This document shows, piece after piece, positions 6,886 to 62,891 of a stretch of 64,000 bases of DNA. Under the pieces are notes generated by a model. That model did no database searches. It saw only the letters and a program-made list of their open reading frames with translations, and was not told where the DNA came from. The stretch comes from Berberis thunbergii (Eukaryota; Streptophyta; Magnoliopsida; Ranunculales; Berberidaceae), in the NCBI GenBank assembly GCA_003290165.1, contig QNQO01002086.1:1-64000 (forward strand), written 5' to 3'. The number at the start of each line of letters is the position of its first letter. Position 1 is the stretch's first letter. A program made the position numbers and the translations under genes.

Positions 6886-6960
6886 AAGGACCCAATGCAT
6901 GTGTGATGAAAGGTATGTGATGATAAGAAAACAAGGTTATTCCTATAGCTTGCTGAAAAG

Positions 6961-13067: not shown

Positions 13068-13113
13068 GGGGGGGGGGGGGGGTGAAGTGTACATTTGCCC
13101 CCCCCCCCCCCCC
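13068..13113. repeat. G15 tract facing a C16 tract
   Basis: Fifteen consecutive G (13068-13082) are followed after 15 bases by sixteen consecutive C (13098-13113). The second tract marks the start of the first 1.1-kb repeat unit, and C tracts recur at the start of units 2 and 3. The pair can form a hairpin or, on either strand, a G-quadruplex. Tract lengths may be affected by sequencing error. Confidence 0.85.
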
Positions 13114-15599: not shown

Positions 15600-15760
15600 T
15601 ATGCTATCATATATATACACCAGCTTTTTTGGCCACGAAATGAAATGGCCAACAGCTTCTCCTACAGTCCTAACTTCGTCTGTACATTGCGGCACCGCTG
15701 AATGTTTCTCAGATTCTACCGCCACTTCAAATTGTATCCTCGCATAACCTGAAATTGCAT
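15600..15760 (-). pseudogene. Possible CACTA-associated protein fragment (DUF8039-like)
   Basis: The minus-strand reading gives ARIQFEVAVESE, then AVPQCTDEVRTVGEAVGHFI and SWPKKLV. The pattern P-x-x-TDE-x-x-TVGEA-x-G-x-FI-x-WP-x-x-LV resembles a domain common in the second gene of plant CACTA elements, which I believe is DUF8039. Only this segment remains. The assignment is from memory of the motif and could be wrong. Confidence 0.45.
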
Positions 15761-15831
15761 CATGGCATTGTATAAGTATAACAACACACACACACTAAGT
15801 CGGTATATAAATCTTAACCTGAAATACAAGG

Positions 15832-15987
15832 ACACACCTATTACTGCTACTATATATATGCAAACCACTGCCAAACACAAAGGGTTTTGTATCAGTAAGA
15901 TAAATGTAAATGACTAAAGGTCCAACTATATTTCTTGATAGCATCCTTCTCAACTAATATATATATATAGTAGCAGTAATAGGTGTG
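15832..15987. repeat. Inverted repeat, ~27-bp arms
   Basis: CACACCTATTACTGCTACTA (from 15834) is repeated in inverted orientation as TAGTAGCAGTAATAGGTGTG (to 15987), each extended by a TATATATA run, with a loop of about 95 bases. This could be a small MITE or foldback inserted in the captured CURT1-like sequence. Confidence 0.8.
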
Positions 15988-15997
15988 GAACTTACCC

Positions 15998-16058
15998 CAG
16001 AATAACCAATTCCAACGAGCTCAAGAACTCCGGGAACTAAAGGAAACCTATTAATGGC
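15998..16058 (-). pseudogene. Captured exon of a CURT1/CAAD-type thylakoid curvature protein
   Basis: On the minus strand the exon reads AINRFPLVPGVLELVGIGYS(G). It is bounded by a CAG acceptor and a GTAAGT donor. The motif P-x-x-P-x-x-LELVGIGYSGWF belongs to the CAAD domain of CURVATURE THYLAKOID 1 proteins, which bend grana margins in chloroplasts. It is one exon only, separated from the helicase exons upstream on the same strand, so at least two genes contributed. Confidence 0.7.
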
Positions 16059-16379
16059 CTGCAGAAACAGAATGCACAAATTAAACTTTCGTTCAATAAA
16101 TATCATACAAGCTATCAATAACTCTTAAGCTCGCATATAACAGATATAACAGCCAATTCAAGAGATATCCAGTTAATTTTTTCTATTATAGTTTCTTCCA
16201 AAAAAAAGGATGATATCCAGTTAAAATATTGTGTTTCATGGAACAAAAACTCACTCGTATATGAAGGCATGCATGTGCATGTGTGTCAAATAACGGTGAG
16301 GCTTCTATTAAGATTTAAGCAACACCATTTTTTCTTAACGAAAAGGCCAAATTAAATTTACTTACTCAAGCAGCAAAAT

Positions 16380-17325
16380 CTGTTGCAATAAGAAAGTCCA
16401 CTTCCTGCTTTCTGAAAAGCTCCAAAGCCTATAAAAACGATGAGATAGCTTAGTAGAACAGAATTACAAGAATACAACGCCAAATAGGCTATCCCAATGA
16501 CGCATGCCCCAAATGAAAATCAATATTAAAACTACAATAAAATCAAGATAGTTGTGTGAAAAAAGAATTCTTCAGCAAACATCATTTTAACATATTCTTT
16601 TCTATTCTTGTGAATGTGCTCATCAGAAGGGAGACAGATCGGGAATCCCAACAGACAAATTAACTCCATAACATCAATACTTGAAACTAGATAATTCTAG
16701 AAACTATGTTCACCATAAAAATGTGGCATATAAGTTGATTATATGATAAGGATACTTACATCCAAACGCTGAACTTGAGTAAGATTGCCATGAAGCTCAG
16801 CAGCTTTGAAACCAGCTAATCCAAACAAAATTTTTAATCTATGTGCAGCTTGTTTTGTTCCACTGCACATTAAATCAAAAGCATACTGTCAGAATTTGAA
16901 TGAGTTGGTAGCTAAAATACACAATAAATGAATAAAGAAATTCTATTGGCTGCTTGCATAAATTCATTAGGACAATGTTTTCTTTGGAAGAAAATAATTA
17001 ATAGGTTGGATGATCAGACATCAATAACTACACTTATAGTAGTCTAATTCCATGAAGCCTGATTAGCACCCGTCTATTCAAGATCATGTTATCCAATCAT
17101 ATATATTTTCTCAACTATATTAGGCATTAGTCCATTGCTAACAGATTAAAGCATGAGCATTTAAACTGAACATGCTACTTGGGAAACATAAAAAAAAGAC
17201 AATAAAATGTTGAACTTTTGGAATCAAACCTAAAGATAATCACTCTAGAAGTGAATGTCCTGGAAAACAATGCAAGCAGAACCGCCTCCTGATTTACTTC
17301 ACGCATCCGGCGTATCCTAACTACC
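16380..17325 (-). pseudogene. Captured DEAD-box RNA helicase (RH28/DDX27-like) exons
   Basis: Three minus-strand exons in the right order encode the helicase C-terminal RecA domain. About 17325-17240 reads RRMREVNQEAVLLALFSRTF and SRVIIF. About 16862-16770 reads GTKQAAHRLKILFGLAGFKA, then AELHGNLTQVQRL. About 16432-16385 reads ALELFRKQEVDFLIATD before a stop where family members have VAARGLD. The sequence is characteristic of the plant RH28 / DDX27 branch, nucleolar helicases of large-subunit ribosome assembly. The introns are still present, so capture was at the DNA level. The N-terminal ATPase domain is missing. Confidence 0.85.
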
Positions 17326-17808
17326 CTGCATGAAAGCAATAATATGTGGAAACAGTTGGATCAACTTTATCTGAAATAGAAATACAGGAGGATAGTCACA
17401 ATGATGATATATAAAAGCATAATACATGGAGGGTAGAGGCCAAGTTAATATGACATCTGCTCCCAGGGGATGACACTTCTTGGGGCTTATAGGACATGTG
17501 AAGATCTCACTGTTAGAATGAGATCATCCTTGCAAATATCAACTTATTCACAGACATACTACAAAGGGATACATGTTAAATGAGAAAGTGGGGTCCTTAG
17601 GAAAAAGAGCTCTGCTCTGTGGCGATTTGAGGGGTACTACTGGAATTTTTTTCTCAATTGAATCCTTTCAATCTTAACCGTTCCAAGAGTTTGGGAAACA
17701 ATATCCACCATTGAACAATTAAAACCTAGAGCAGCCGCCGTATATTTATTTGTTTCCTTTTAATAATCTACTTTAATTGATTGCAGAAGTTCCTAACTGA
17801 GGGAAAAG

Positions 17809-18325
17809 ATGAAAACAGGCAATTTGCTTATAGTTGTTCTGCTGAATGTAGTTTTCTTAGCAGTTGTAAGTCCTAATTATTTATCTGTATTTACTTTTCA
17901 TAATATTCTTAGTGTTTAGCTTTTTGTAATATTGTTACTTCGTATATAATATACTATATATAAGTTATAATTGCTTTTATTAATTTTTGATGAATTGCTT
18001 ATTCTTCCGCTGCAATGCTAGATTTCTGCTGTTCCCCAAACCTGTCCAGCTAATCTTGATGGTGGTTGTAAAGATTCCGATGAATGGGAAGAGGAATTCT
18101 TCCCTGGTATCCCTAAAATCAAGTATGAGGTACTATATTCGGATCCATTTGTGCAAAAACAGTTCAAGAATATAACTGAGTATTTTCCACATGTTAAACT
18201 TTGTAGATAGTATCAAATTTTTATGATTTTTTTTTCTTTTACTTATTCAGGGACCTACTAGCAAGAATCCACTTTCATACAAATGGTACAATCCTGACGA
18301 AGTGATTCTTGGGAAAAAGATGAAG
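17809..18325 (+). pseudogene. XYLA: Captured first three exons of plant xylose isomerase
   Basis: Exon 1 (17809-17865) encodes a signal-like start, MKTGNLLIVVLLNVVFL. Exon 2 (18022-18129) encodes TCPANLDGGCKDSDEWEEEF and FPGIPKIKYE. Exon 3 (18251-18325) encodes GPTSKNPLSYKWYNPDEVI and LGKKMK. Donors (GTAAGT, GTACTA, GTTTGT) and acceptors (TAG, CAG) are all visible. This is the N-terminus of plant xylose isomerase, which interconverts D-xylose and D-xylulose. The catalytic barrel is absent, so the fragment is inactive. It is on the strand opposite the helicase and CNOT10 pieces. The frame is intact across all three exons, suggesting recent capture. Confidence 0.88.
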
Positions 18326-18879
18326 GTTTGTATCAATGTTTTCATACAAATTTTACAAAAATTCATCACACCGTGTGATAAAACAGAAAATTAGTATGAA
18401 ATACACACCTTGGAATTCTTGCACAAGTTTCTGAAGCACATGCAATTAAATTCAGCTTCCCACACCAAGAAACAGCACTGAAAATTACACATGTAACCTT
18501 TCAGTCACCAACTCACATAACGAAAATAGCCAACAATTCCTAAATGGATTTTAGATTGAATAAATAAATAATGAAAAAAATAGTCTGATTAAAGCTTAGG
18601 GCATTAGCAGAAAACCCCAACTCTGTCTACAATTCCAACGGAGCACCAAATTGAGGTCAAAATTCACTCGAACTTCATCGATATCCTTGTAGGTCTTACA
18701 ATTCAGCCAACTGTAAGACAAACTCTTGTTTTGAAGCAAACCCATTGCAATGCTTACAAAACTGATCACTTAAGCCAACTGGGAACACCATAATTCAACT
18801 AAAACAGACCCAAATTGCTTCACGTTAAACTCCAAAGACCCCAAAATTAATCAAATTAAACAAAGCATGACGAAGGGGT

Positions 18880-19110
18880 GTGACCTGAAATTTCTACGAA
18901 GACCTGGAACGCTCATCTTGTGCTTACGATTGGAGGGGGGTTGTTTGAGACTGATACGAAACACAGTTGCAGGACACACTGAGGGCTCCTCCGCTGAATC
19001 ATCTTTCATGGATACAGCTTCTTCTTCTTCCGCTTCCTCCTCTTTGATGGATGATACCTTGGAGCAAAACTCGAAAGAGCCAAAGCTCGAAAGCGAGAGA
19101 GAGTGAGAGC
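18880..19110 (-). pseudogene. Probable captured 5' exon, unidentified
   Basis: The minus-strand frame contains MKDDSAEEPSVCPATV and SVPGLRRNFRS after a CT-rich leader (19090-19200 on plus is GAGAGA-rich). The layout looks like a 5' UTR plus first coding exon of a plant gene, but I do not recognise the protein. A GT donor near 18885 on the minus strand is plausible. It may belong with none of the neighbouring fragments. Confidence 0.35.
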
Positions 19111-19399
19111 GGTGGAGTGAGGGAGGCAGGGGGAGCAATGGAGAGAGTGAGAGCAATGGAGATAGGGAGCAGGGCGAGAGAGAGGGAGGGAGTTTGTCAT
19201 TTTAAGAATAAATCAAGCACAAACTTGTCCTCTGTCAGCCAATAACAGTTTAATGCAGTCAACCAAACTATGACCTAATGATGCATTTTTAGTGGGAAGT
19301 GGGAGGCAAGGGTGAGTAATCCTGGATATCCTAATTTACCATTTTGATTGGAGTTGTGCTAAAAATCATTTTGGTAGGTATTTTCAATTCTACGACAAA

Positions 19400-19860
19400 T
19401 TGTCCCTCCAAGAAATATCTGTGGCCCAGTAACATCAAACGCCATGGATGAATCATTCTTAGTAAGTTCAACCTCACGGAATTGTACAAACAGCAAAAGC
19501 CAAACAAAATTTTTCTTTTGTTTCCTGGCCCTCACTTTACTGGAAACAATGTTATTAAAACAAAAAATTACCTGCAGAGAAGAAATCGTTTCAGCTGCTT
19601 TGCCTCTATCAGAAAATGCATCAGCAAGTTGGGCTTCCAAGCTTTCTATATGCTATAGAAAAAATCATATCATATCATAACCCAAAAGGTAATGCCAAAA
19701 CTGAATTACTGGCTCCCACATGTTTTTTAAAATTTAAGAATAACAGATACACATCTCACAATCTTCTGTTTACCTTTTGATATTTAGAAGAAAGCTCTGC
19801 AATTGAAGCTAGCCTTTTCTCTTCGGCAGTTTGCAACAACCCTTTTGTTTCTCCTAACAT
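19400..19860 (-). pseudogene. Captured exons of a coiled-coil protein, unidentified
   Basis: Minus-strand exons read MLGETKGLLQTAEEKRLASI then AELSSKYQK (19860-19786), HIESLEAQLADAFSDRGKAA then ETISSLQ (19652-19570), and FREVELTKNDSSMAFDVTG (about 19490-19430). Heptad-like Leu spacing marks a coiled coil, and GTAAAC and GTAATT donors follow the first two. I cannot place the parent gene with confidence. These pieces share the strand of CNOT10 exon 1 just upstream, so a fused transcript is possible. Confidence 0.55.
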
Positions 19861-19945
19861 CTGAGGAAAGTTGAGTACCACAAGGATATAAAAAAATGTG
19901 CATATATAAAATAAGACTTCATAAAAAATAATTTCCCATCTATTG

Positions 19946-20106
19946 GATGAACATTCCCCGAACCTCTTAGACTGGAACAATAGAGCAGCTTCTTTAGCAA
20001 GGCCGGCGGTGACAGAGATAAGCCCATCTTCATCACCTCCTCCGGAAGAAGACCCCCCATCTCTAGCAGAAGAAGAACCCGAAGACACCAAATCTCGCGA
20101 ATCCAT
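19946..20106 (-). pseudogene. Captured first exon of CCR4-NOT subunit 10 (CNOT10-like)
   Basis: From the Met at 20106 the frame reads MDSRDLVSSGSSSARDGG, a Gly/Ser linker, then GLISVTAGLAKEAALLFQSK and RFGEC. Plant CNOT10 proteins start MDSRD, then a low-complexity stretch, then an SVTA-LAKDAALHFQS-RF-EC segment that begins the TPR region. CNOT10 is a scaffold subunit of the CCR4-NOT mRNA deadenylase. Only exon 1 is present. A purine-rich leader with the original 5' UTR character lies upstream (20110-20400). Confidence 0.75.
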
Positions 20107-22107
20107 CCTATTCTTCCTCTTCTTCTTCAGATCGAACCAATTCAGATCGATAGTAAACGACTGGAGAAACCAAAAGAAACAAACACCCAAAAAAGAAAAA
20201 AGAAAAAAACCCTCGTTGAAATCTCAGTTGGGGAAGCAAGTCGACTGACTCAAAGGGGGTCTGAGTGCTATCCAAGTTGGTTCAAAGCCCTAACTAAGGA
20301 TTTGGATTGCATTGAAGAGTGATTTCTTCTTCTCAGTCTCTGGGATGGGCTCTCAGATTGCAGAGAGAGAGAGGGAGAGAGAAAGGGAAAGAGACGAAGA
20401 CGAGAACTTTAAAATGAGAAAAAATGAAAAAATGAGGGTTTGTGATTTTAACCGTCCGATCGTATCAAGATCTGAAAAAATGAGATTTAATTTGATATTG
20501 GATTAAAATCGAAGCGCTATCCTAAATGTAAGTAGCATAGCGCTTCCAAAGCGCTATGGTAGCTTTGGTAACGTTTTTTCTCATAGCGTTTTTTAAAGCG
20601 CTATTTAAGACATAACTAAGATAGCGCCTAATTGAAAAAAAAAATTAAAAGCGCTATTGTAGCGTTTTTTTTTTTTTTTTTTTTTTAAAGACAAATAAGC
20701 GCTATCCTAGTGCCCACTTGGATAGCTCTTTAAAAAAGCGCTATCTAAGTGGCGTTACCTAAGCTAATATTTGTAGTAGTGTGTGCCCATGTGTTCTTGC
20801 TGACAGGGGTGTTAAATGTTGTATTGTATGCCATCAATGTTCTTTTTGGTTTCCTAGATGGAATTCCTTCCTACCCGTGGTAACTTTAATTCATCAAATT
20901 ACAAGTATTAGTATTTCTTATAACCACTTTGATGTCAGACATGAATCTTTTAACAAGTATTGCTACTTCGAATAGGTAAACATTAAAGCTAGAATTGCCC
21001 CCCCCCCCCCCCACGGCAACAACCTCACCCCTTTCCCAGGCCAGCTAGAATTGGGGGTGTTGCAATAGAGGTTAGAATAATAATAGAGTCTTTCACTTCA
21101 ACTCATGTGATATTTATTAGATACCATTGACAGTGATACTGATAATTTGACAAATTATAAGTTGGATTTCATCATGTATACACCACTCACATTAGGAGAA
21201 AAATTCAACCCACCAGAATAACCAATAAGAGAAAGACCCAACACTGAGATAACAATTAATACCTCATCGGTTTCTTCCTTTTCTTCTCTTGACATTGATC
21301 ATCTCAAAAATTTCCATATAAAGAAACAAGGAACGGTGAACATGGCTAGCTAACGGCATCGACTCTCATCTAGAGGTCTTTTAAGGCCGAACTCCAGCTC
21401 ACTATAGGCAGAATAGCCAGGTTTCTCAAAGTCGAAAACCACGCCAAACTAATCGGCACTAGCGCCCTCGTATACCTATGCGTTGTGATCAAGTACCTTG
21501 TTGGTGAAGTTCTCGAGCTTGCTCATGGTTTCAAATTAATTAGTTTGTCATCAAACTATTAGATTATTTTTATTAAATAACGTTCAATTTGTAGGCCTCT
21601 TTACTAGGGCTTACCTCAAATATCTCCAACATGTTTATTTGTAGCAGCTCCCACCTCTTTGTATTGTTTATATTCTTCATTGGTTTATCTTAAACCCCAT
21701 CACCTTTGTTGAAAATTGGGTAAAGAGACCTGACATAGAAAGTTAGGAAAATTAGCATGCTAAACATCAGACTATATGCAGGAGACCAACCTGTCTTTGA
21801 AACAATGAGTTTTTCCTAGTGGTTTTGAGAAATGAAGCCAATATAAAATAAAAATATGGATGGGAAGTTAAGTGGTACTAAATTAAGTTTATTTAGCTGA
21901 TATAGGTAGGTGTGCCCATGTGTTCTTACTGACGGGGGTGTTAAATGTTGTATTGTATGCCATCAATGTTGTTTTTGGTTTCCTAGGTGGAATTCCTTCC
22001 TACCCGTGGCAACTTTAATTCATCAAATTACAAGTATTAGTATTTCTTATAACCACTTTGATGTCAGACATGAATCTTTTAACAAGTATTGCTACTTCGA
22101 GTAGGTA

Positions 22108-22938
22108 AACAATAGAGCACAAGTGTTGTTTACTTTAAAACGAGCTTACTTAAATTAACGTTTGTGAAACAAAGCAGATCTGGTATGAAAAATAAAGTCA
22201 ACTATATGTGTATTTTATACATCTAACCATATAAATTTTGCAAAAACTATTTATAGTGGGTTTTACTTCTTAAGTGACATGTCACATGCATCACACACCT
22301 CATAAAGACTTATTCTATTGACCAAGTGGTGCAACTCTTATGGGTGAATAACTTATACATTAGATGGAAACTTCCGAAGTAGTAGCCCTAGAAGTGATAA
22401 TCGCAGTAATCACTCCAGAAGAGGTAGTAAAATAATCGCTCTAACAGAGGTGATTATGAAAATTACTTCAGCAGAGGTAGTCAGAATACTTACCACATGG
22501 TTTAAAGATCTTGTCTGGTACAATAATAAAACTGCAAAGGATACTAGTCACATGTTTGTCATGTACCAAAAAAGGCAGTAGAGAAATATCAAGATTACAT
22601 TAAAACCAAAGAAGGCGATTTTAATACAATGGGAAGATAATAATCCCTATTTCTTTTATTCTTTGAATTTACTCACGTTGCAGTAAAATCAAAAGTCTTA
22701 ATTTACTCATTGTTTTGAATTAGTTACTTATATACTTATAACTTAAGACAAAGTAAATGATCAAAAGAAAATCATGGTATCTAATATTTTCTGTAGTAAG
22801 TGTCAATTTTAGCTGTAAAAAGGATAAAGGTAGAGAAAATGAAAAACATAAATACCCCTGAGTATGAGGCCGTTCTAGAGAGATAACCATTAGTTAATGT
22901 AATCACTTCAGCAGCGGTGGTTACCATCATGTTGCTAC
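22108..22938 (+). other. Decayed copia gag region
   Basis: This stretch has no usable frame but lies where gag is expected, between the leader/repeat region and the protease. Short runs built on AGAAGAGGTAGT and CAGCAGAGGTAGT are scattered at 22380-22490. I assign it by position only. Confidence 0.4.
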
Positions 22939-30525: not shown

Positions 30526-30778
30526 AATGGTTGTAATGTTCTTTCCTGAATAGACAAATATTTTTTGAATGAAAGTATTATTTTGCCCCGTATTGTCGTG
30601 TTCATTTTAGATGCTTTGTAGATCATAGAATTTTTACTATTGGGCAGAACGTCTGTCTTTGTCAATCAAAATATATTGCTGCTTTGGATCGATGTCGTTG
30701 ACCTTGTGACAGAATATGGGTTAATCAACAGAATTCATCATTGGTCGCGAGTTGACAAGGCTCCCTCGATCATTATCT

Positions 30779-31980
30779 GGTAGGTACGACGATCATTGTT
30801 TGTTGGAGAGCAATGACCCCTTGGCGAGGCATCGTCATCAATGGACAAGCACTGACTAGACTCCCACATCCTCGATCGTCGTGATTCACAGGTAGAGAAC
30901 TAGGCGGTGGGTATCAGAAGTCGACGTTAGGAGTCGCGAACTAACTAAGCTTACCTGGTAAGTTCGACGATCATTGTTTGTTAGAGAGCAATGATCCCTT
31001 GTCGAGTCGTCGTCATAAGCAGACAAGCGCTGAGTAGGCTCCCACTTCCACGATCGTCATGGACCACGCATAGCGGACTAGGCATTGGGCACCAGAAGCC
31101 ATCATCATCAGTTGCAACCTAACTAAGCTTACCTGGTAAGTTTTGTGGTCATTGTCTGTTAAAGAGCAATTATCCCTTGGCGAGTTGTCTTCATCAGTGG
31201 ACAAGCGCTGACTAGGCTTCCACTTCCTCGGTCGTCACGGTCCGCAAGTAGCGGACTAGGCGTTGGGCAACAGAAACCATCGTCATCATTCGCGAACTGA
31301 CTAGGCTTACCTGGTAAGTTTGGCGATCATTGTCTGTTTGAGAGCAATGATCCCTTGGCGAGTCTTCGTCATCAGCGGACAAGCGCTGAATATACTCCCA
31401 CCTCTTTGACTGTCGTGGTACGTGCACAGCGGACTAGGCGTTGGGCACCAGAAGCCGTTGTCATCAATCACAAATTGACTAAGCTTACTTGGTAAGTTCG
31501 ACGATCATTGTTTGTTGGAGAGCAATAATCCATTGGTGAGTCATCGTCATCAGTGGACAAGCACTGACTAGACTTCCACTTCCTTGGCCGTCATTATCCC
31601 CACGTAGCGAACTAGGCGTTAGGCACCAAAAGTCGTCGCCATCAGTTGCGAACTAACTAAGCTTACCTGGTAAATTCGGTGATCAATGTTTATTGGACAA
31701 CAATGATCCCTTGGCGAGTAGTCGTCATCAGTGGACAAGTGCTGACTTGACTCCTATTTCCTCGGCCATCATGGTTCGCGTGTAGCAGACTAGGCATTGG
31801 GCACCAAAAGCCATTGCCATTAGTCCCAAACTGACTAACCTTAGTTGGTAAGTTCGGAGATCATTGCCTATTGTAGAGCAATGATCCCTTGGCGAGTCAT
31901 TGTCATCAGCAGACAAGTGTTAACTAGACTCCCACTTCCTTGGCCATCATGGTCCACGCATAGCGGACTATGCGTTGGGT
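30779..31980. repeat. 178-bp tandem array in the Tat 3' region
   Basis: Units begin with GGTA(A/G)(G/A)T at 30779, 30957, 31135, 31313, 31491, 31669 and 31847: six full units with exactly 178 bases each and a seventh of about 134. Each carries GATCATTGTTTGTT, GAGCAATGATCCCTTGGCGA, CGTCATCAG(C/T)GGACAAG, GCGGACTAGGCGTTGGGC and AACTAAGCTTACCTGG. The units differ by substitutions but not by net length. The array lies between integrase and the antisense frame, where Tat/Ogre-type elements are known to carry tandem repeats. Confidence 0.95.
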
Positions 31981-43560: not shown

Positions 43561-44656
43561 AACAAAATCAAAGTCCTTGCATGACATTAGCTGAGTAGCT
43601 TACGTCCACCAATGATCAATTGACGTTCGACCTTGTTATTTCGCTCGATATAATTGGGGAATAGTTATGCGGGGTAGTGGTTTCCCTGCATGTCTTGCAC
43701 AGTGAATGTCACATTAGGGGATGGGTGCTCTATTTGAGCATGCTGGATAAGGTGGTATTCGTAACGAGACCCAATCCGCAGTTCTCAGACCGATATCTTT
43801 CTTGACCAGTTGGACTATCCTGGTTCGTCGCATGCACCGTGTAGGCGTATATTAAGTTTGTAGTCTTTTCTTCGACCTCTTGCACATACTCTTCATTCTA
43901 TTTCCATCGGGATTGCTTTTTTACCAAAGCCCACAATTCTTTCAGCCTCCCTTATGGGACCCATTATTCGATCTCATTCCTGAATATTTGGTAGTCTTGA
44001 GTATTGTGACCATTGGCTTTTTGATAAGAGTAGTACTTGTTCTTATCGCGCTTTGACGGGTCGCTCTTGAGCTTAGAAGGCCATTTAAAATCCTCCCAGC
44101 TCTTCATGGTGGAAAGGATTTTGGAGAAACTAGCGTTGAATGGAGTGTAGGCATGGTACTTCGATTTGACATAGTTGGTGGCTTTGTCGGGTTTTACCCT
44201 GTCACTTTGTCTTCTTTTGGATCTGTCTTCCTCTTCGTGTTTTTTCTTCTATTCCTTGTCCTCGATCTTGGAGGAGTGTCTAATCTCATTCTCACCCCTT
44301 TTTTCTGCCGCTAACATCTCCTCAAATAATGATTTATTTTGCGCACTTTTCAACAAGTCTGCCATGTCTTTTAAAGGCTCCAATGTGAGGAAATTATAAA
44401 ACTGACCTCCCTGGAGGCTGGAAGTGAAGGTAGTGACAAATGTGTCATCACTATAATTGTCGATCAGGGTCAACTCATCATTGAACCGAGTCATATAATC
44501 CTTGAGGGTCTCACCATGCTTCTACATGAGGCTGAGCAGATAATGATGCCATTTTCTGATTCGTTAGTCCTTCACCAACATCTGGAACAAATTGATAGAT
44601 CTTGTTTGGAGGCAGTGGAACTAGGTCAATGCAGCCTTCTTTAGGCTGGTAGGGAA
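43560..44656 (-). pseudogene. gag of outer Tat element, C-terminal part
   Basis: The minus-strand reading from 44656 includes HGETLKDYMTRFNDELTLID, then SLQGGQFYNFLTLEPLKDMA and LFEEMLAAEKRGENEIRHSS. Further on come KSDPSKRDKNKYYSY and KANGHNTQD, where a CCHC-like knuckle would lie but its Cys residues are largely lost. The sequence stops abruptly at the GAA target site of the CACTA element and resumes at 55011. Confidence 0.8.
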
Positions 44657-44799
44657 CACTACAACACAAATGCTCATTGATAGCATATGCCAATAGCGTT
44701 TTTTTATAAATGTGTTATAAAAAGTAAATTTTGAATGACTTAGAAAATGAAAAATGATATAAAAATCTGGCGGGCGTTTTGGCGCTCTCCCAAATGTTT

Positions 44800-45260
44800 T
44801 TTGTACTTCGCGACTCTCTCCTCTCCCCCATTTAGTACACTAAACCACAGAGCTCGCCTCTCATCTCCTTCTCTCTCGCCTCTCTCTGCTCGACCTCTTG
44901 CTCGTCTCCTTCTTGCTCTTGTTATTGCCCTAAAACATAGCAAAATCAAAAGAACACAACAATCCTTCACTCCATTTTCTTCTGCAAGCAACATACCATC
45001 CTTTACTCCAATCTTCTTCTGCAAGCAACAAACCATCCTTTACTCCATCTTCTTCTGCAAGCAACAAGTATGTGCTCCTTCAATCTTCTTTTTATCTCAT
45101 CCAACGCCATTATCTCTCTCTGCTTTGGTTCCATTTAGATCTGGATTCTACCATTCTTTCTTCTCTCCAATTTCTTTTTCTCACCCCTCCATTTCACTTA
45201 CTCAAGAACAAACTACTTTTCAAGCAAGCAAAGTGAAGAGAAAGTGAGTTGATTTGAGTC
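44800..45260 (+). other. CT-rich 5'-UTR-like sequence with 36-bp repeats
   Basis: This segment is rich in CTCTCTCTC, like plant promoters and 5' leaders. CTTCTGCAAGCAACA occurs three times at about 36-base spacing (44979-45066). An open frame (44747-45247) crosses it but is low complexity. It may be a captured promoter/leader that drives transcription through the gene fragments downstream. Confidence 0.45.
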
Positions 45261-45429
45261 GAAGCGGAGGAGTTGTGACGGTGAGAACTAGCGAGTGATT
45301 GTGGTGGCAGAATTGGATGCATCGGTGGTGCACCATCAATGCTGGTTCTCAGAGATCTAGAGTTTCCAGATCTTAGCTTCATGTTCTTCTTCTTCTTTGT
45401 GTCAATTTTGAGTTTCTTAATCAGGCAAA

Positions 45430-47050
45430 AATGGCAGAATTGGGTCGAGAAGAAGAAGGAGATCATGCGCCTTGTGGCCATGGCATCGGAGTAGGCGGCA
45501 AGGGCCGAGCTTGAAACTGCATCAGAGTACGGAGCTGTTTTCACCGTTCGCCGGACTCAATGTGTTGTTTGTTAATGCGCTACCACCACCAGGTGCTTTA
45601 GATGTAAAGTTGTTCGGTACTGGTGAGTTTTCCCCTTTTGCTTTTGGGTTTAGTTTCGTTGTTGGGTTTTCAATTGCTTGATTAATTCGTGATAATTGCT
45701 TTGGTTTCCTGCATATAATTGGGTTTTCTTCTTTACATAATAATGGAATCGAATAAGTAATTTGGTTTTCATTCGATGGTGACTTTGTTGCTTATAATCC
45801 TTAGTGGGAGTTTATTATTTGGTCATGGAATAATGTATGATCTTAGTTTATCAGAAATGAATTATTTTTGAACATTACTTAGTTGTGGTTGGATTTATTT
45901 TGCCAGAAAGGAATTATTTTTAAACGTTACTGTTTTTGAAATGGTTGAAAATCTTTCTTGAATTTAGTTTATCAGAAAAAAGGAGACTAAAACTACTTAG
46001 TTTCATACACTTATTGTCATTTCTCCTGTTGGTTGTGTTTACCGATGTAGCATTTTTGATGACTTTTTTTTGTACCATCCACATGTTTTATGGCTGCAAT
46101 GGGAAGAAGGGAACCACCTGGCTGGTAATCTTTGTTTACGTGTTCTTTTATCAATAAAACTGCAATGAAAAAAGAAGAGGGTGTATATTGATATTCATTC
46201 AAAAGAAGAAAACTAAAATGGCTAGGATATAATAGGCATATTATAGGTGAAACCAACATGGCTAGGGTATAGATCTTTGTTTAGTGATGAAGGAAGAAAA
46301 TTGTAAAGATGGTATGTCGAAAATTCTATAAAATATAGAACATTTTATAATCTATAGTTTTATCTTGGATTTTTTTTCCACCTTCCTCCCATACATAAGA
46401 AGATACTCTTAAAGTATATATCGTCATGTTTTTCAAAGACGGTGACTTTGATTTTTATGTTTAGTCAATGAAAAAGATTTTGTAATTAAAGTGAATTTTC
46501 TATAGATGATTATTATTACATAGAAAATATTCTTCTAAACTTAATAAGATTGTTTGCTTCTTCTCTTGAGAGATTTTCTTTCGTTTTCAAGTATTGCTTG
46601 CCTTGTAAGTTGTCAATAGCATTGGAGGAGGGGCCCCAAGAGGAATCTAATTGGATCCGTATCTGAAGAGTTTGCAAGATCTCAACTAGGCAAACACCTT
46701 TAATCCCTAGCATCATAGCTACAATAGTTGAGAGATCTTTATATGATTATGATAAGATGCTCTACTGTTCAAAGAAAGTAAGCATTTGAGGATTAGAAGA
46801 ATCCCCTCACCCCAAACAACACATGTTATGTATTTTATCTACTTCCTTCCTTTTACTCATGGTTCCCAATCTTCATATTGTTCTTCTTATATCTTTAGTG
46901 TTTTAGACTTTTCGTCAGTTATATTTTTACTTGACCATACTTCGGTTATCAAGTTATAGCCACTTTGTCTTTCAGTGACAGCTCTAACAATGAGGCTATT
47001 GTGGTTGAAGACACTCTCACAGAAGATGAAAAGTCAGCTCTCAAGGTAAA
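45430..47050 (+). other. Possible captured exons, unidentified
   Basis: Two segments look exon-like but I cannot name them. At 45430-45640 there is G/C-richer sequence with a donor-like GGTGAGTTTTCC. At 46977-47045 the frame DSSNNEAIVVEDTLTEDEK, then SALK, is bounded by CAG and GGTAAA. Sequence between is AT-rich and intron-like. Confidence 0.35.
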
Positions 47051-48102
47051 ATATTAAAAAACTGGATGCAATCTCTTTTTCCCCCTAATTGTGATATGTT
47101 TGAATATTTGAATATTCATTTGTATAGTGGACTCATTCAAATTTTGTTTTTCTAATTCTGAATACATTTGGATAAAATGCACGACAAGGAAAGGGATCAA
47201 GCATAGTTGAGTTCTTGAAGAGTACCAATTCAACAAATTTCTTTAAACAATACTGAATGTTAGGAGTTTGGATTGATGGAAGGAGTCCTTCAATAACAAG
47301 AAGAAAACAATTAGAATGTACAAGCAAGATTTGTTGCTTAAGAGAGTAAACAATAATTCTATCGATGTCCTCTATGCCACCAACTTTATGAGTCTCATTA
47401 TTCTTTTCTAATCATGATATTGGAGGAGAAAATCAGTTTCAAATATACAAATTGTGACAAACGCGCATAGTATTTTCATTATATTTTTCCTTGTTCTATG
47501 CCAATGAATAACGTGTAAAAAGAAATCAAATACCACCCTTTACCAATTAGCTCTAAAAAAATGCATTTTCTTATTTTTGAAGTTTTTAGTCAACTATTTT
47601 TACACACTTTTTTGGGTTTTTCACCAAGCCAAATATATATCATAAAAAGAAAAAGAAAAAAAAGTTCACACAACACCATATGATTGAATGATTAAATATT
47701 CAAACACCTTAGCATGAGTGATTAAAATATTCCCATTACTGTGTTTGATGTTTGTGGAAATTATATTGCATGTAGACCATTGGCCTCATCATCATTTTGA
47801 CTTCTATAGCCGACTTACAAATTTTTATTTCAATTTCCTCTCTTGGCACAAAAGCAGAGTATATTCAGCAAGCTCCAAAGCTCATTCTGTCAGATACAAA
47901 CAGTTATTAAGCATCATGACAGGCTCAAGCTAATTCCTCCTATAACAAGTCCTAAACGCATAATCTTCGGAAGTTTCTTTTCTTCCCCATATCGTCATTG
48001 TTATAACTCTTTGGTATTGATCACCATATTTCATCAGCTTTTGATTTTGTCATTGAAAGATCGCGCAATCTGGTCCCGTTGAGTGAGACACCATTTTGTA
48101 GC

Positions 48103-48226
48103 CATGGCGGGTGCAGCGGGGGATAAATCATTGGAGGAAACTCTTACATGGGTTGTTGCTGCTATTTGCGCTGTGTTTGTGCTCATTTATGTACTCATTG
48201 AACATGGAATTCATTCTCTTGGACAT
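48103..48226 (+). pseudogene. Captured first exon of an MLO gene
   Basis: From ATG at 48103 the exon reads MAGAAGDKSLEETLTWVVAA, then ICAVFVLIYVLIEHGIHSLG, and ends at a GTAAGT donor. MLO proteins are seven-helix plasma-membrane proteins, and this is their extracellular N-terminus and first membrane helix (SLEETPTW, then EH-IH-LG). The original 5' UTR seems to be included (about 47950-48102). No other MLO exon is seen downstream. The frame is intact. Confidence 0.85.
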
Positions 48227-49117
48227 GTAAGTTTTGAGTGTTTAATGTGTTAGGAATTCAACACCTACAAGATATGGGTTCTGATTTAGTTTCTTGTTTT
48301 GTATGGCAGTGGTTCCAGATTTTCTTCATTGTTAGGCATCATTTCAAAACAGGCCTACCTTTAACGTCTTTTTAACATACCACCCTTCTCTTCTACAAGA
48401 CGAATGTCTTTTACAAAGCCTAGATATTTCGAAATTTTCATTTGATAGATTATGGTTTAATAACCATTCATCAGCTGCACAAGATCAGCTGGCTTGTATT
48501 GTGCAACTCAGCTTAAGCAAAGCTAATCCAATCTCATCACTCACCTCTAAACAATTCAAAAGCACACCAACTGTCCCCTGTCAAATAAGAGGTACGGGTT
48601 TGTTGTTTAGGTTTTGAGTATTTTTAATTGATTCGGGTTTACCTGTCATGTAAACTGATCTTATTATTTTAAATGTTTCAGGTTCATATAATCAACCCTG
48701 CGTTCAAATTCTATGGATGAGCAATTAGGTTGCAAAGATTTGATTGTTGGCGGGTTCATATACATGATACTACTATTCAGAGTTAGAATAAGAACTTGTT
48801 TGATGCTAACTGGTTTTAGAACTTGTGCCTCTAATTAGGCGTCGTGTTATGCATTCCAATCCTCGGAAGTACACATCTATCCATAGTTTTACTCGCATAG
48901 TTGTTAAAATTCAGTAAACTATATGGTCGTTGATTGATAAGATTACGAACATGATCAACACAAGGATGACATGATTATGCCTATAGCTATAGTGATAATC
49001 TAAAACTTTCTTACAAATCCATGTTGTGACTTGATCTAATTAAATTGTTCGTTCGAAGAAAACCCTAATTTTGTAATTTGTTCTTAATTAATATGTATTT
49101 TTTCTTTTCATTTCTAG

Positions 49118-49221
49118 CATGTTGTAGGGACTTGGAATGTCGGAGGAAAATCACCCCATGAAGGCCTAAACTTGAGAGATTGGTTAAGAACACCTGCTTC
49201 AGCTGACATTTATGTGCTTGG
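49118..49221 (+). pseudogene. Captured exon of type I inositol polyphosphate 5-phosphatase
   Basis: The exon reads [20 protein letters not shown], then [15 protein letters not shown], between a TAG acceptor and a GTGAGT donor. WNVGG and DIYVLG(FQE) are the first conserved blocks of the plant inositol 5-phosphatase catalytic domain, which removes the 5-phosphate from inositol phosphates and phosphoinositides. The next exon, with the catalytic FQE and beyond, is missing. Confidence 0.82.
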
Positions 49222-50335
49222 GTGAGTTAATTTTTTCAAACAACTCTACCAACCTTGTCTTTGTTCATTACTTCAATCACTTGCCTCACACACCACACTT
49301 CTATCCATCCCTATCTATTTTTCATAAGACTAAGACAACTGATTTTTCATGAATATATATATTTTGAATATTTATTATGTTGGTTGTGTTTTTAGATCTA
49401 GATTTTGTTCTCAGGGATTTTGGTAGATAAGGATGCTTGAGAAGGTGATTTTTCTTAGAAACCCTTCCCAATTGCTTTTTTTTTTCTTCTATGATTCAAG
49501 TTCTAAGATGATGAAACATAACATAACTACTTTGCTCAAAAAGTGTTTGGATCAACCAAGGGGAGAGCTTCTTCTCGTATGATTCAGGTTCTTGTATTCA
49601 TTTTGCGATTGATTTAGTTATGGCTTTCATTTCAGTGGGAATGTTAAGTTGGTGATGGCAATTTTCAGCAGTGTGTGGTGCTCTGCTGGTGCTGTTTTCC
49701 TCAGCAAGGTTCATATTCTGGACTGCACTGCAGCTGTTTTTTATGCACAGTGTATTTGGCTCTATCTCAGAAACAAAGCTTTATAAACTTTGTTTTTTTG
49801 GCACAGCTGGGGCGTAGAGATGTATGGCAGCTGGGACTCCTGAAAATGACATGTTGACTTGGTTGATTTGTTATGGATCCGAAAGGAAATGACTAAGCAT
49901 GGTGCACTCATTGTTCCCTATCCCCTATATGCACAATGTTGTTGTTGCTTGCACATGATTTTGATATTTTCTAGTTGTTGCCTTTTTGTAGTTAGGTAGT
50001 GGTGGTGTTGTGTTTTCTTTGTTCTGTTTGATTTTTTTTCTTCTTATGGCCAATCTTATTAGACATGCATGATGTTTAATACCCTTGTATCATCTACATG
50101 TTTTTTTTGCTTCCCAATCTTAATACTTCTCAAATTTTTTTCATTATTTGTTTTTTCTTATTCAAATTTGATATATGTATATCTAACACTTAATACGGAT
50201 GAGTGGGGGTTTTGAAGGATCCCCAAACATTTATGATTCGCTTTGATACTTAGATTGCAGGAAAGTATCTAATGCTCAATATGGATGCATGGTTCTATCC
50301 TCTGATATCTTTTTCCCCATATGGATTGTTTGTAG

Positions 50336-51083
50336 GGATACCAAAATTCTCCTGGAATTATACCCTTGGCAATCAAGGATGTGTTCAACATAATTCAAGA
50401 TGTAAGTCTAGACAGTTGATATTTGAGGCATTCATATACCTGTATTATTTATGTATGAATATTAACTTTTTCAAGCTTTTAAATGACATGGCTATTTTGA
50501 TCTCTGGCGGACTCCTGGAAGAGAGTTTTTACTTCGTGTGTCATATCTTGAGATCTATAATGAGGTTAGTAGTCTGGAGTGTATATATTTGCTTCTAAAC
50601 CAACATGTATCGTTTATGCTAAAACTTTTTGCGAGTGAGAACTACTTTTGTCTTTACATATGACCCTTGGATTTTTTCGCGTCTGTATAATATTTTTGTG
50701 TCTGTATAATCTTTAGATTCAGGTCTTTGTTTACAACCATATATATTTTGATATTGTAATGAGGTTAGTAACCTATAGAAAATTCATCTGATTATGAAGC
50801 TTATTTTTATTCCAATTCAGGTGATAAATGACTTGCTTGATCCAACAGGACAAAATTTGCGTGTAAGGGAGAATGCTCAGGTTTGAAGATGAACTTGTGT
50901 ATTCTTATTTTATAACTTTTCAACATTAAGTTAAATGTTTGTGCAAGCAGTTGCTGCATATCTTTTGTTCCATAGAATAAGGTCCTGATTGGTTCTTGAT
51001 TATGCCAAGTTTTGCAGGGCACATATGTTGAAGGGATAAAAGAAGTAGTTTTATCCCCTGGGCATGCACTTTCTTTCATTGTA
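50336..51083 (+). pseudogene. Captured kinesin-7 motor exons
   Basis: Four exons in order encode part of the kinesin motor: SPGIIPLAIKDVFNIIQD (50336-50401), TPGREFLLRVSYLEIYNE (50511-50564), VINDLLDPTGQNLRVRENAQ (50821-50880) and GTYVEGIKEVVLSPGHALSF (51018-51083). Introns remain. Donor GTAAGT and acceptors CAG are visible for most, but the acceptor before the second exon reads GG instead of AG. The sequence matches plant kinesin-7 (CENP-E-like) motors. P-loop and switch motifs are not included, so no motor activity is possible. Confidence 0.88.
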
Positions 51084-51524
51084 CTCGTTCTTATGCATGG
51101 TCGTTATCTATGTGAAGTTTTAAATAAATTTAATGAAAATATATTAAAGAAATTTCTAGTTATTTTTCATTTTAGTTTTTCTTTTATGTTATTCAAGTAA
51201 GATAGATTTATATTTTTGTATCTTGTAACATACTAATATTATAGTATTTTTATCGAGATAACTTGGAATATAAAAATAGTGGGTAAATTTAAGAGAGATT
51301 AAAAATTTGTGGAGTTTCTAAGTTTGGAAATAGAGAGAGAAAGTTGGAGAAACTTTTTAACAATGGTGGATTTGGACAACTTTAGCTCTAGAAAGATTCT
51401 TGCATTAGGGCAATGTTAGGGTATTTGATGGAAACCAAATTTTTTTTTTGGCCAGAGAATCCTCAAGTTTTGCATTATAATATATGGACAAAGACTTATC
51501 TACCACTTGTTTTATTTTTTGAAG

Positions 51525-52391
<867 letters not shown>

Positions 52392-52916
52392 TTGCTTTCT
52401 TTTCTAATTGAACTCCATGCTTGTTTCTTGAGGATGATAAATCACATTGTGCTTCTGTTGTTATCTGCCTATATTTACTTCTATCAAAGACATGGATTTT
52501 TAAATGTATGGATCATATTGGAAGTGTGCCTTTTTCTGGGCTTGCCTGTTTTGATCTGATTGCTTTGCATACATCTAAGGAAATTTGTGGTGGTAAAATC
52601 ACGTTCCTTGATTCTGTTCCATTTTCAAAGCTTCCTCACGAAATAAACCAATGATGATGTCATGTTTGAGCATATGCAAGTAATTAATGTTTGTTGGACC
52701 TCAAAACTATATTTAACAATTGATTCAAGCATTGCCTCCTATCCCGGTTAAGGAAACACAATAATGGTTGCCTCTGCTTGTTATTAAGAGATTAATTCAA
52801 TATGAGTTGGTGGTGTTGCATGATATAAGCGGGTTTCCAACATTAAAATTCAAGGCAACTTTACTTGGGTGGTGTTGCATGATATTACGGGTTGAGGGTT
52901 TATTTGCATATATTAT

Positions 52917-53003
52917 TCTGAATGAGGAATACCCTGAACCTAAAAAACCAGTTTTACTTCTAGGATGGGGTCAATGGACTAATATTCAGAAGAAGAAAGG
53001 TAT
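52917..53003 (+). pseudogene. Possible captured exon, unidentified
   Basis: The reading EEYPEPKKPVLLLGWGQWTN, then IQKKKG, ends before GTATGC, a plausible donor. The composition looks like a real exon, but I do not recognise the protein. It lies between PICKLE and UTP4 on the same strand. Confidence 0.4.
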
Positions 53004-53230
53004 GCCATCATGATACTTACTGTTATTACTTGTAGGCAGTGGGTGAAAAGAAGTAAGTATTACTTACTGTTATTACCATTTTTGTGAAGAAATTGATCAG
53101 TGTTCTTTTAATTAGAACCTGACTTGATGATTATAAGAATCGGGTAAAGAACTGGTGCAGCACTCTAAGGTAAAAAGCGAATCAGGTTTCTGTGATTATA
53201 TGCGTCTGCTGCACTCTAATTTTCCGATCC

Positions 53231-53413
53231 TTAAAGTCAGATGGTTTCAGGTTAGGGACGCTTGTAAGTGCAGATAGTAGTGGTAGCATGCAATTTTGGG
53301 AAAGTCAGCATGGAACTATGTTGCAGACACATTCTCTCCATAAAGGTGATGTCAATGCATTAGCAGCAGCTCCTAGCCATAATAGGGCGTTCTCTGCAGG
53401 TTCTGATGGTCAG
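53231..53413 (+). pseudogene. UTP4: Captured UTP4 (cirhin-like) WD40 exon
   Basis: The frame reads [20 protein letters not shown], then [20 protein letters not shown] and [13 protein letters not shown], closing with a GTAGTT donor. These are WD-repeat blocks of UTP4, a subunit of the t-UTP part of the small-subunit processome in the nucleolus. Only two of the many repeats are present. The frame is intact. Confidence 0.82.
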
Positions 53414-53652
53414 GTAGTTGAATCTGACTTCCCCTATTTGTTAGTCAGATTGAATTTTGTGATGAGCTTTTCCCCTGTCAATGTCATATCATATATTCAT
53501 CTAAGATGAAGTTGTCTTAAATATGCCGTGCGCTTTCTCTTATTTGTACGTCGGATTGAATTTTGTGATGAGTTTTTCCCTTGTCAATGGCATATCTTAT
53601 ATTCATCTAAGATCAAGTCGTCTTAAATGTCCTGTGTTTTCTCTCTGTATCC

Positions 53653-53912
53653 TTGGAAGGCTTTTGCTATGATCCAAGCAACAAATACTAGTCTATGAGT
53701 TCTTACCAGGTGGTTCACTGTCTGATAATCTATACGGTAAGCTGCTCTAAGAAAATATATTTCTTTCTGTTATTTCCCCATTTCTGAAAGTATGGCTCTA
53801 TGTTATATCTTGTGCATCTCCATCTGTTAAACAACTGTTTCAGGTCAAAACAGTAAAAAGGTAACATTAAGCTGGGGCTGCAGACTGAAAATCGTTGTTG
53901 ATGCTGCAAAAG
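53653..53912 (+). pseudogene. Captured receptor-like kinase exons
   Basis: Exon 1 (53653-53736) reads LEGFCYDPSKQQILVYEFLP then GGSLSDNLY and ends at GTAAGC. After a 107-base intron, exon 2 (53844-53912) reads GQNSKKVTLSWGCRLKIVVD then AAKG, followed by GTAAAT. This is subdomains V-VIa of a plant receptor-like kinase (G-C, then LVYEFLPGGSL, W-RL-IA-DAAKGL). The ATP-binding Lys and catalytic Asp lie outside the fragment. The exact RLK subfamily cannot be told. Confidence 0.8.
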
Positions 53913-55010
53913 GTAAATTTCTTATACGTCTTAGTTCTTATGGAAATAGTTTCACTTAGGCTGCACTTTACTAAACACATACACGCATATGTCAACAAAT
54001 GTTTATATTTCCATGCTACTTGGTGATATTAGAGAGAGAATCCACATAGGTGATGTGATATTAATGCAGATCAACACACCACACACATCTGTTAGGCCCC
54101 ATATACGATTCACATACACTAGGCGAAAGAGTAGGATGATGGTTTAACAGATTGTTTTGGTTTAACAAATTGTAACTGATGTTAAGGACTTTCAGGGAGT
54201 GATCAACAGAATGTGAATGTTCCAGTTGTTGCTGATATAGAATGTGAATGCTTCAGTTGTGAATGCTCCAGTTGTTACTGAGGTAATATGCTACAGATGG
54301 TGGAAAATGCAAGTGCTTAAGTGTTGCAGAGTGCTCTGTCAGATGGTGGATGAGAAGGGTTCTTCAATATTCTGTTAGTGGTTAGAAGAATGTTCTGTTA
54401 GAAGAGTAATGCTCTGTTAGAAGAATAATGCTATGTTAGTTGCTCTGACCTCTATGAGGTATGAGTATAAATAGGAGAATGGCAATAACATTGGGATTCA
54501 TTATTTCACACATTGTACAAATCAGCAAATGCTTATTAGGAGATTAAGGCATCTCGAACAGCCTACATCATTCAGTTCATATTACATTGTAATTCACTCT
54601 TTCGAGTTGTATCTTGTAATTCCAATTTCAGCATTGTCAATACAATTTCTGTTCCAGCAATTGATTGTTGAAATCTTCTAGTCTTCCATATATTCCTCTC
54701 TTTGGCTTCTGTTATAAATTTTGCTTGAACTGCTTCTAAAACTTATAAGATGTAATGAAAAGTCATTTGATAGCAAAAAAAAAAAAAAAAAATTCTATGT
54801 ATAAATACCATAGCGTTTTTAAAACATTATAAAAGGATCTACCATAGCGTTTTTAAAACGCTATAAAAGGCTAATTTTCTATAGCGTTTTTAAAACGCTA
54901 TAATAGACCCAGGGTCTATTATAGCGGCGGCAGACATAGCGGTTACTAAAACGCTATGGTATCCTACCATAGCGTTTTTGAAACACTATCAAAGGGCTTT
55001 TTTTGTAGTG

Positions 55011-55524
55011 GAAAATCCGACACAAGACGATTTCTGAACCTTTCTTTAGCGCCATCACATGGCGGTAATGGCGTAGGTGGTCAGATGGATTTGTAGTTCC
55101 ATCATAGAATCATGGTTTAGGGGACTGGACTTATTTGGCAAAGGTGTGTTCATGATATGCTCATAGACTTGAGGGACTATGAGATTGTATAGGACGTCCA
55201 GGTTGGTAGCCCTAGTAGGAGTGGATTCTTGATGGCAGCCCTATCAACCCCTGGTGCGTAGTCTTCTCGAACTCCTTCATTTCTTAGGTTCCCCTTGTGA
55301 TTGGCTTTCTGTTCCTCGATAGGGATGTTGCCCCTTTCATGAACATGATCCCTGTCATCCTCTTGAGCCAGAGACCTTTCTGGGCTGTCGTTATTATTTG
55401 ATGGCGGTTGTCATTCTTGGGCAAGTCTCTCCACCACCCGAGTGAGATGATTCATATGAACCAAAATCTGATCTATTTGGGGATCCGTCGTGGCCCCTTC
55501 GATAGTAGGGCATGTATTTGTCAT
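55011..55524 (-). pseudogene. gag of outer Tat element, N-terminal part
   Basis: On the minus strand from 55524 the frame reads MTNTCPTIEGATTDPQIDQI then LVHMNHLTRVVERLAQ, a stop, and a charged stretch DRDHVHERGNIPIEEQK. It runs into the GAA site where the CACTA element begins and continues after 44656 with the capsid domain. The distribution of Glu, Arg and Asn is typical of the disordered N-terminus of Tat gag proteins. Confidence 0.75.
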
Positions 55525-61355: not shown

Positions 61356-62891
61356 ATGGAACTCATAGACCTTCTCCTCCTCATCTTCACACCACTTCTC
61401 CTCCTCCTCTGGTGGCGATACTGGTCCGTCACTGGCGGTGGTCCTAAGAACCTCCCACCAGGGCCACCAGGGTGGCCACTAGTTGGAAATTTAGCCCAAG
61501 TCATTCTCCAAAACCGTCCCTTCATGTACATTGTACGCGATTTACGTACCAAATATGGCCCAATCTTCACCATGCAAATGGGTCAACGCACACTCATCAT
61601 CATCACCAGTGCAGACCTCATCCATGAAGCCCTGATCCAAAAAGGTCCCTTGTTTGCTAGTCGACCTGCCGATTCACCAACTCGTCTCCTATTCAGTGTT
61701 GGCAAATGCACTATCAACTCAGCTGAGTATGGTCCTCTTTGGCGCACATTACGCCGGAACTTCGTAACTGAGATCATAAACCCTGCTAGGATCCGACAGT
61801 GTAGTTGGATCCGTGAGTGGGCAATCCAAAACCACATGGCTAGACTTAAAATCGAGTCAGTGGAGAGTGGTTCAGTTGAAGTAATGAGTAACTGTAGACT
61901 CACTATATGCAGTATTCTGGTCTGCATTTGTTTTGGTGCCAAAGTGTCCGATTCACTAGTTAAAGATATCGAAGCGGTTCTAAAAGATGTCATGATGATT
62001 AGTACTATGAAACTACCGGATTTTCTTCCCATCTTTACGCCATTGTTTGGAAAACAGCTAAAGGAAGCCAAGTTACTGAGGCAAAGACAGATGAAGTGTT
62101 TGGTTCCTCTGATAAGGAGTCGAAGAGCATTCGTTGAAGGTGGAGGAGTAGATAGCAGCAGGAAAGGAGGTTTTGAAATGGTGAGTCCAGTTGGTGCAGC
62201 ATACGTCGACTCATTGTTTGGGCTCAAGCCCTTGGGCAGAGGCAAATTGGGAGAGGAAGAGTTGGTTGCATTGTGTTCTGAAGTCATGAATGCAGGAACT
62301 GATACTAGTGCCACTACACTAGAATGGGCATTACTTCACTTGGTGTTAGACCAAAAGATACAATCCAAGTTATATGAAGAGATTGTTGCATGTGTAGGAA
62401 AGAAGGGGAACATAAATGAAGAACAAGTAGAGAAAATGAGTTATTTGGGTGCAGTGGTGAAGGAGACATTTCGGAGACACCCACCAAGTCACTTTGTATT
62501 ATCACATGCAGCAACCAAGGAGAGTGACTTAGGAGGGTATACAATCCCAGCCGATGCAAACGTTGAATTTTACACGGCATGGGTAAATGAAGACCCGAGC
62601 GTGTGGAAGGATCCAAGTGAGTTCAGGCCAGAGAGGTTCTTGGAGGGTGATGGGGTGGATGTGGATGTTACAGGGTCTAGGGGTGTGAAGATGGTACCAT
62701 TTGGAGCTGGTAGGAGGATTTGCCCTGCAATGACCCTTGGCACATTGCACGTTTACTTGATGTTGGCTAGGATGGTTCAAGCCTTCAAGTGGGTGCCTGT
62801 GCCTGGTTCACCACCTGATCCTACTGAGACTTTTGCCTTCACTGTTGTCATGAAGAACTCTCTCAGGGCACTCATCTTGCCTAGGTCATGA
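61356..62891 (+). CDS. CYP77B1: Cytochrome P450, CYP77B family (CYP77B1-like)
   Basis: An intact, intronless 511-residue frame of normal length for the family. Residues 1-25 form a leucine-rich membrane anchor (MELIDLLLLIFTPLLLLLWW), followed by the proline hinge PPGPPGWPLVGN. The I-helix oxygen-binding motif is AGTDTS (about residue 313), the K-helix is E-TF-R (ETFRR), then FRPERF, and the heme-binding loop is PFGAGRRICPA with Cys as iron ligand. Ala replaces the common Gly after CP, which I recall as normal for CYP77B. Blocks such as MQMGQRTLIIIT, INSAEYGPLWRTLRRNFVTE and SPPDPTET-AFTVVMKNSL support CYP77B over CYP77A. CYP77 enzymes sit in the ER and oxidise fatty acids in mid-chain; Arabidopsis CYP77B1 is reported to epoxidise unsaturated fatty acids. 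The Met at 61356 directly begins the anchor, and no in-frame upstream Met follows the TATA box. Confidence 0.92.
   Translation: MELIDLLLLIFTPLLLLLWWRYWSVTGGGPKNLPPGPPGWPLVGNLAQVILQNRPFMYIVRDLRTKYGPIFTMQMGQRTLIIITSADLIHEALIQKGPLFASRPADSPTRLLFSVGKCTINSAEYGPLWRTLRRNFVTEIINPARIRQCSWIREWAIQNHMARLKIESVESGSVEVMSNCRLTICSILVCICFGAKVSDSLVKDIEAVLKDVMMISTMKLPDFLPIFTPLFGKQLKEAKLLRQRQMKCLVPLIRSRRAFVEGGGVDSSRKGGFEMVSPVGAAYVDSLFGLKPLGRGKLGEEELVALCSEVMNAGTDTSATTLEWALLHLVLDQKIQSKLYEEIVACVGKKGNINEEQVEKMSYLGAVVKETFRRHPPSHFVLSHAATKESDLGGYTIPADANVEFYTAWVNEDPSVWKDPSEFRPERFLEGDGVDVDVTGSRGVKMVPFGAGRRICPAMTLGTLHVYLMLARMVQAFKWVPVPGSPPDPTETFAFTVVMKNSLRALILPRS

Follow-up and report, generated by a model that had tools for sequence, protein, structure and literature searches.

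The closest relatives of the element described here are Tgm-Express1 of soybean and the Pack-CACTA elements of Arabidopsis and maize. According to passages of the Tgm-Express1 report, this CACTA element of the wp allele carries pieces of five genes in 5.7 kb, the fragments are cassette exons, and transcripts crossing the element splice the captured exons in many combinations (PMC1947982). The Pack-CACTA, or Pack-TYPE, elements of Arabidopsis and maize are portrayed in parts of PMC8903248 as non-autonomous and as containing coding pieces of several loci, with CACTACAA ends in Arabidopsis, and in maize it is the Pack-CACTAs that contained the most distinct loci. Here we analysed a window of 64,000 nucleotides from Berberis thunbergii (assembly GCA_003290165.1, contig QNQO01002086.1, positions 1 to 64,000). 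It holds an element, hereafter element 1, which we are confident is a non-autonomous Pack-CACTA that captured parts of several genes at the DNA level, moved into retroelement-like sequence and underwent decay of its coding frames.

Element 1 resembles Tgm-Express1, as passages of PMC1947982 present it, in being a CACTA element in which pieces of several unrelated host genes, exons as well as introns, follow one another, a comparison that an earlier, sequence-only reading of this DNA had drawn and that is borne out. The two differ in that element 1 has at least seven source genes in 10.4 kb, lies in retroelement-like sequence and is known from DNA alone, whereas Tgm-Express1 sits in the intron of a gene; a word search of PMC1947982 found no statement on fragment orientation in the soybean element. 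With the Arabidopsis and maize Pack-CACTAs, element 1 shares non-autonomy, coding pieces of several loci and, in the case of Arabidopsis, the type of ends, in a different host lineage. Sections of PMC8978399 describe Chenopodium CACTA elements which, like element 1, carry captured host fragments inside, there in the 5' part; each of them, however, has a single source gene, placed upstream of a domain that the element itself encodes, and no such domain was found in element 1. A keyword search of the literature returned no publication on MLO, PICKLE and kinesin fragments combined in a CACTA element. Element 1 is a rich example of a known gene-capturing type and not a new system, and we do not claim its seven source genes as a record.

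The termini are those of the CACTA superfamily: element 1 starts with CACTA (CACTACAA at 44657), finishes with TAGTG (TTGTAGTG to 55010) and is bordered by the 3-bp target site duplication of this superfamily (GAA/GAA). Element 1 also has the repeated end motifs of the superfamily; the right end carries four and the left a single half-motif. Between these ends lies host coding DNA from seven genes, the feature by which Pack-CACTA (Pack-TYPE) elements are recognised. None of the 82 open stretches of at least 45 amino acids (aa) in element 1 contains a transposase domain above the Pfam cut-off. The CACTA transposase defines autonomous members only, and its absence is expected in a non-autonomous element; since no such domain was found, element 1 would need the transposase of another CACTA element acting on its ends. 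A comparison of a 25-base subterminal motif with viral contigs gave 0 relatives, and no solo long terminal repeat (TG...CA, 5-bp duplication, at least 200 bp) starts within 53916-54401.

The cargo is a row of exons from at least seven host genes unrelated to each other, in the order MLO, inositol 5-phosphatase, kinesin-7, PICKLE/CHD3, UTP14, UTP4 and SYMRK-like receptor kinase, and every identified fragment lies on the plus strand (Table 1). The 5-phosphatase has the weakest identity among them. Short exons were recognised best when joined: the four kinesin exons together gave CENP-E, a kinesin-7, as best match (1.5e-12), single exons reaching only 0.19 and 0.21 in Pfam, and the two receptor-kinase exons together matched SYMRK (4.8e-6). 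The PICKLE exons match plant PICKLE proteins. When chosen pieces from 45285-53010, the UTP14 piece included, were searched as a composite, one protein was returned out of 6543 candidates, a UTP14. Human UTP4 ranks fourth for its exon, behind three further WD40 chains in which several repeats match, and the name UTP4 is in part presumptive. A further exon-like stretch at 46976-47045 had no match in the protein search.

Table 1. Coordinates of element 1 and its parts in the 64,000-nucleotide window
Feature	Position	Strand	Evidence or remark
Element 1, non-autonomous Pack-CACTA, 10,354 bp	44657..55010	.	CACTACAA...TTGTAGTG ends, GAA either side
Target site duplication GAA, left copy	44654..44656	.	
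Target site duplication GAA, right copy	55011..55013	.	
Left end: 8-bp terminal inverted repeat and single TAGCGTTTT subterminal motif	44657..44702	+	
Right end: terminal inverted repeat and four TAGCGTTTTTAAAACGCTA-type subterminal repeats (at most 2 mismatches)	54806..55010	.	
Exon-like open stretch, AG/GT borders, possible eighth fragment	46976..47045	+	
MLO exon 1, ATG to donor GTAAGT	48104..48226	+	Pfam Mlo 6.7e-9, above cut-off
Inositol polyphosphate 5-phosphatase exon	49118..49221	+	PDB OCRL E 0.0042; Pfam 0.11, below cut-off
Kinesin-7 exon a	50336..50401	+	joined-exon match CENP-E; tblastn with protein P0234
Kinesin-7 exon b, acceptor GG not AG	50511..50564	+	joined-exon match CENP-E; tblastn
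Kinesin-7 exon c	50821..50880	+	joined-exon match CENP-E; tblastn
Kinesin-7 exon d, homology stops within exon	51018..51080	+	joined-exon match CENP-E
PICKLE/CHD3 exon a, frameshifted	51525..51622	+	protein search, plant PICKLE proteins
PICKLE/CHD3 exon b	51742..51878	+	Pfam SNF2 1.3e-9; PDB CHD4 4.8e-10
PICKLE/CHD3 exon c, frameshifted	51976..52192	+	Pfam SNF2 0.0009, below cut-off
PICKLE/CHD3 exon d, frame change and stop	52275..52390	+	protein comparison
UTP14 exon piece, seventh gene	52915..53010	+	E 1.1e-6, computed against 5.8 billion proteins (Pfam alone gives 0.24); 84% over 32 aa to protein P0121
UTP4 exon (WD40)	53251..53413	+	PDB human UTP4 E 2.1e-10, single stretch
SYMRK-like receptor kinase exon a, frameshifted	53660..53736	+	joined-exon match SYMRK
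SYMRK-like receptor kinase exon b	53844..53912	+	joined-exon match SYMRK

Introns are retained between the kinesin, the PICKLE and the kinase exons, and the capture must therefore have taken place from genes at the DNA level and not from mRNA, as the sequence-only reading had proposed. Its other claims about the structure fared as follows. A single CACTA element is borne out by the CACTA-type ends, the GAA duplication and the repeats near the right end; the ends that it called perfect and the duplication are there, the perfection of the ends stopping after 8 bp of inverted repeat. Its six named genes stand, as does their being unrelated host genes, while the count does not, UTP14 having been missed; and the arrangement on one strand holds for all seven.

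Directly downstream of the UTP4 exon, at 53429-53644, element 1 also contains a tandem duplication of about 106 bp, with copies that are 84-86% alike.

How was this mosaic put together? The pieces of host genes were probably picked up as DNA in several steps, either by the fusing of adjacent insertions, whose inner ends were lost, or by faulty gap repair. The mosaic would then have been moved into the retroelement-like sequence by the transposase of another CACTA element, and decay would have followed without selection on the coding frames. The fusion of neighbouring insertions with loss of inner ends is the capture model favoured in the portions of PMC8903248 and of the review PMC13317346 that treat the question. 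This model finds no direct support here, as there are no extra subterminal motifs inside element 1, and capture may have used another route, such as gap repair or a mosaic obtained second-hand.

Several observations weigh against our reading of a Pack-CACTA assembled step by step and inserted in a retroelement. The inner subterminal motifs are not above chance, with 2 and 1 one-mismatch matches against 1.8 and 0.65 expected. The inverted repeat is identical over only 8 bp, and the subterminal motifs are uneven (one at the left, four at the right); asymmetric motifs, 4 versus 24, are also reported for soybean Tgmt* in passages of PMC2613891. Much of 44750-47950 is without identified homology. 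The flanks of element 1 resemble a retroelement on the minus strand: over 68 aa the left flank has 43% identity to a stretch at 36184-35981 (E 8.9e-12) whose open reading frame matches Retrotrans_gag only below cut-off (0.067), and when the element and one GAA are removed, the gag-like minus-strand frame continues over the junction with no stop in 43 aa. Yet a different minus-strand frame stays open there for 70 aa, the gag-like homology is confined to one flank, and Pfam recognised neither gag-like piece. Because of these three points the flanks support one insertion event of element 1 only weakly.

A second-hand origin of the mosaic, taken over in few steps from a different mosaic element such as a Helitron or an older Pack element, is the most probable of the alternatives, though we regard it as unlikely. 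It would account for the common strand with no need of a rule, and the lack of inner CACTA ends beyond chance agrees with it; on the other side, we saw no positive sign of such an element, in an analysis that included no systematic search for its ends. The shared strand is itself to be read with caution. That all seven identified fragments share a strand corresponds to p = 0.016 if their orientations are independent, a value computed after the fact and for fragments that may have arrived in groups. Among the open stretches of at least 45 aa, Pfam matches above cut-off were found in 2 of the 46 plus-strand ones (MLO and SNF2) and in 0 of the 36 minus-strand ones, a weak control, as most short exons escape Pfam (only 2 of 10 exon pieces passed the cut-off); the best minus-strand matches below cut-off in element 1 were CxC2 (0.015) and PDDEXK_2 (0.067). 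The single-strand arrangement is weak evidence.

Fragments lying on one strand could also give sense RNA, and element 1 might act as a source of small RNAs touching its seven parent genes, as the sequence-only reading had suggested for six, or use the host fragments as a camouflage shielding it from silencing. The latter idea has been put forward for captured fragments in CACTA elements, in a passage of PMC8978399. We consider either role improbable for element 1.

Could the element family gather exons directionally, keeping or gaining them mainly in its own 5'-to-3' sense, as a travelling train of splice-ready cassette exons from seven genes? If true, directional gathering would enable the element, on entering an intron of any gene, to supply that gene with chimeric exons. 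A second multi-gene Pack-CACTA, element 2 (15137-20781, 5,645 bp), located about 24 kb from element 1, speaks against such a strand rule because its captured exons are on both strands: xylose isomerase exons on the plus strand (7.3e-10) and a CAAD exon, presumably of CURT1 type, on the minus strand (Pfam 8.9e-9, above cut-off). We judge directional gathering to be very unlikely. Element 2 has 15-bp identical ends (CACTACTACAAATAT), a TGT duplication on both sides and many AGCGCTAT/ATAGCGCT repeats near both ends. It also contains a piece that we presume to be RH28-like helicase (Pfam 0.045, PDB 0.077) and what we assume, with no PDB support, to be a CNOT10-like N-terminus. Element 2 interrupts a tandem array (13095-22118) of units of about 1.12 kb that are about 96-97% alike, and two sibling units preserve its intact empty site (115/117 and 113/117 bases).

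We find it highly improbable that element 1 is an expressed, exon-shuffled gene whose left-end promoter would give rise to a spliced chimeric mRNA encoding a product under selection. The shared strand of the seven identified fragments and their mostly intact splice borders would suit such a gene: 11 of 12 acceptors still read AG, the exception being the GG of kinesin exon b, and 12 of 12 donors read GT, counts that omit the kinesin exon d donor, the MLO exon 1 acceptor, as this exon opens the coding sequence, the UTP14 piece and the stretch 46976-47045, and that are not independent evidence, exon ends having been placed with splice sites in mind. So would a TATA-like stretch and one TTTGGCGC site near the left end. 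In a modelled chain from the MLO ATG, furthermore, the 5-phosphatase exon is joined in frame, and the frame also stays open when MLO exon 1 is joined directly to kinesin exon a. The full chain, however, ends with a stop in kinesin exon a after 94 residues, and frameshifts or a stop affect four exons (PICKLE exons a, c and d and kinase exon a). Moreover, all 121 proteins fetched, of 5322 found, match one source gene only; they comprise the UTP14 named above and the best 120 of 5321 proteins returned for the composite of known exons, namely 119 PICKLE/CHD proteins and one kinesin.

Element 1 is predicted to be splice-ready in parts and to code for nothing long. Because frameshifts and the stop break its coding frames, we see in it a decaying passenger and not a new gene. 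By analogy with Tgm-Express1, splicing of a transcript that runs through element 1 could yield mosaic RNAs, mostly non-coding or truncated, and a protein product from such a chimeric transcript is unlikely. The useful chimeric transcript envisaged in the sequence-only reading is thus not supported, the modelled chain being short and several fragments frameshifted.

Inside the left end and facing the captured exons, the region 44736-44830 combines the TATA-like stretch, the TTTGGCGC site and a CT-rich tract. They could represent either a promoter or the 5' portion of a gene that was captured; we assume that the TTTGGCGC site is E2F-like and that, with the TATA-like stretch, it can be read as a promoter feature. 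The same 8 bases recur at 61738.

That element 1 is not one element at all, with ends due to chance or to an assembly join, is hardly credible: the inverted repeat (8 bp) and the duplication (3 bp) are short and the frame over the joined flanks is not decisive, but ends and duplication coincide, subterminal repeats adjoin the right end and one motif the left, and both flanks seem to resemble one minus-strand retroelement.

Elsewhere in the window, 2688-7057 contains pieces of FAR1/MULE-type protein (FAR1 9.6e-11, SWIM 6.3e-6), after which comes an E1-E2 ATPase fragment (6.7e-8); the region is perhaps a Pack-MULE. At 30773-31979 there is a tandem repeat (period about 178 bp) with copies about 77-80% alike. 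An intact open P450 gene of 511 aa lies on the plus strand at 61356-62891 (Pfam 1.9e-91), with CYP77-type proteins among the matches listed. Its identity is at most 84% among the best 120 of 859 matches (Thalictrum 80%, Nelumbo 81%, Coptis 80%), the Macleaya protein, among the matches listed, reaching 84% over 89% of the query.

Element 1 adds to the cases of gene capture by CACTA transposons one with at least seven source genes and with a second multi-gene element close by. Should the family prove large in this genome, its members would suit the study of fragment gain and of a possible strand bias, two points that single examples such as Tgm-Express1 leave open.

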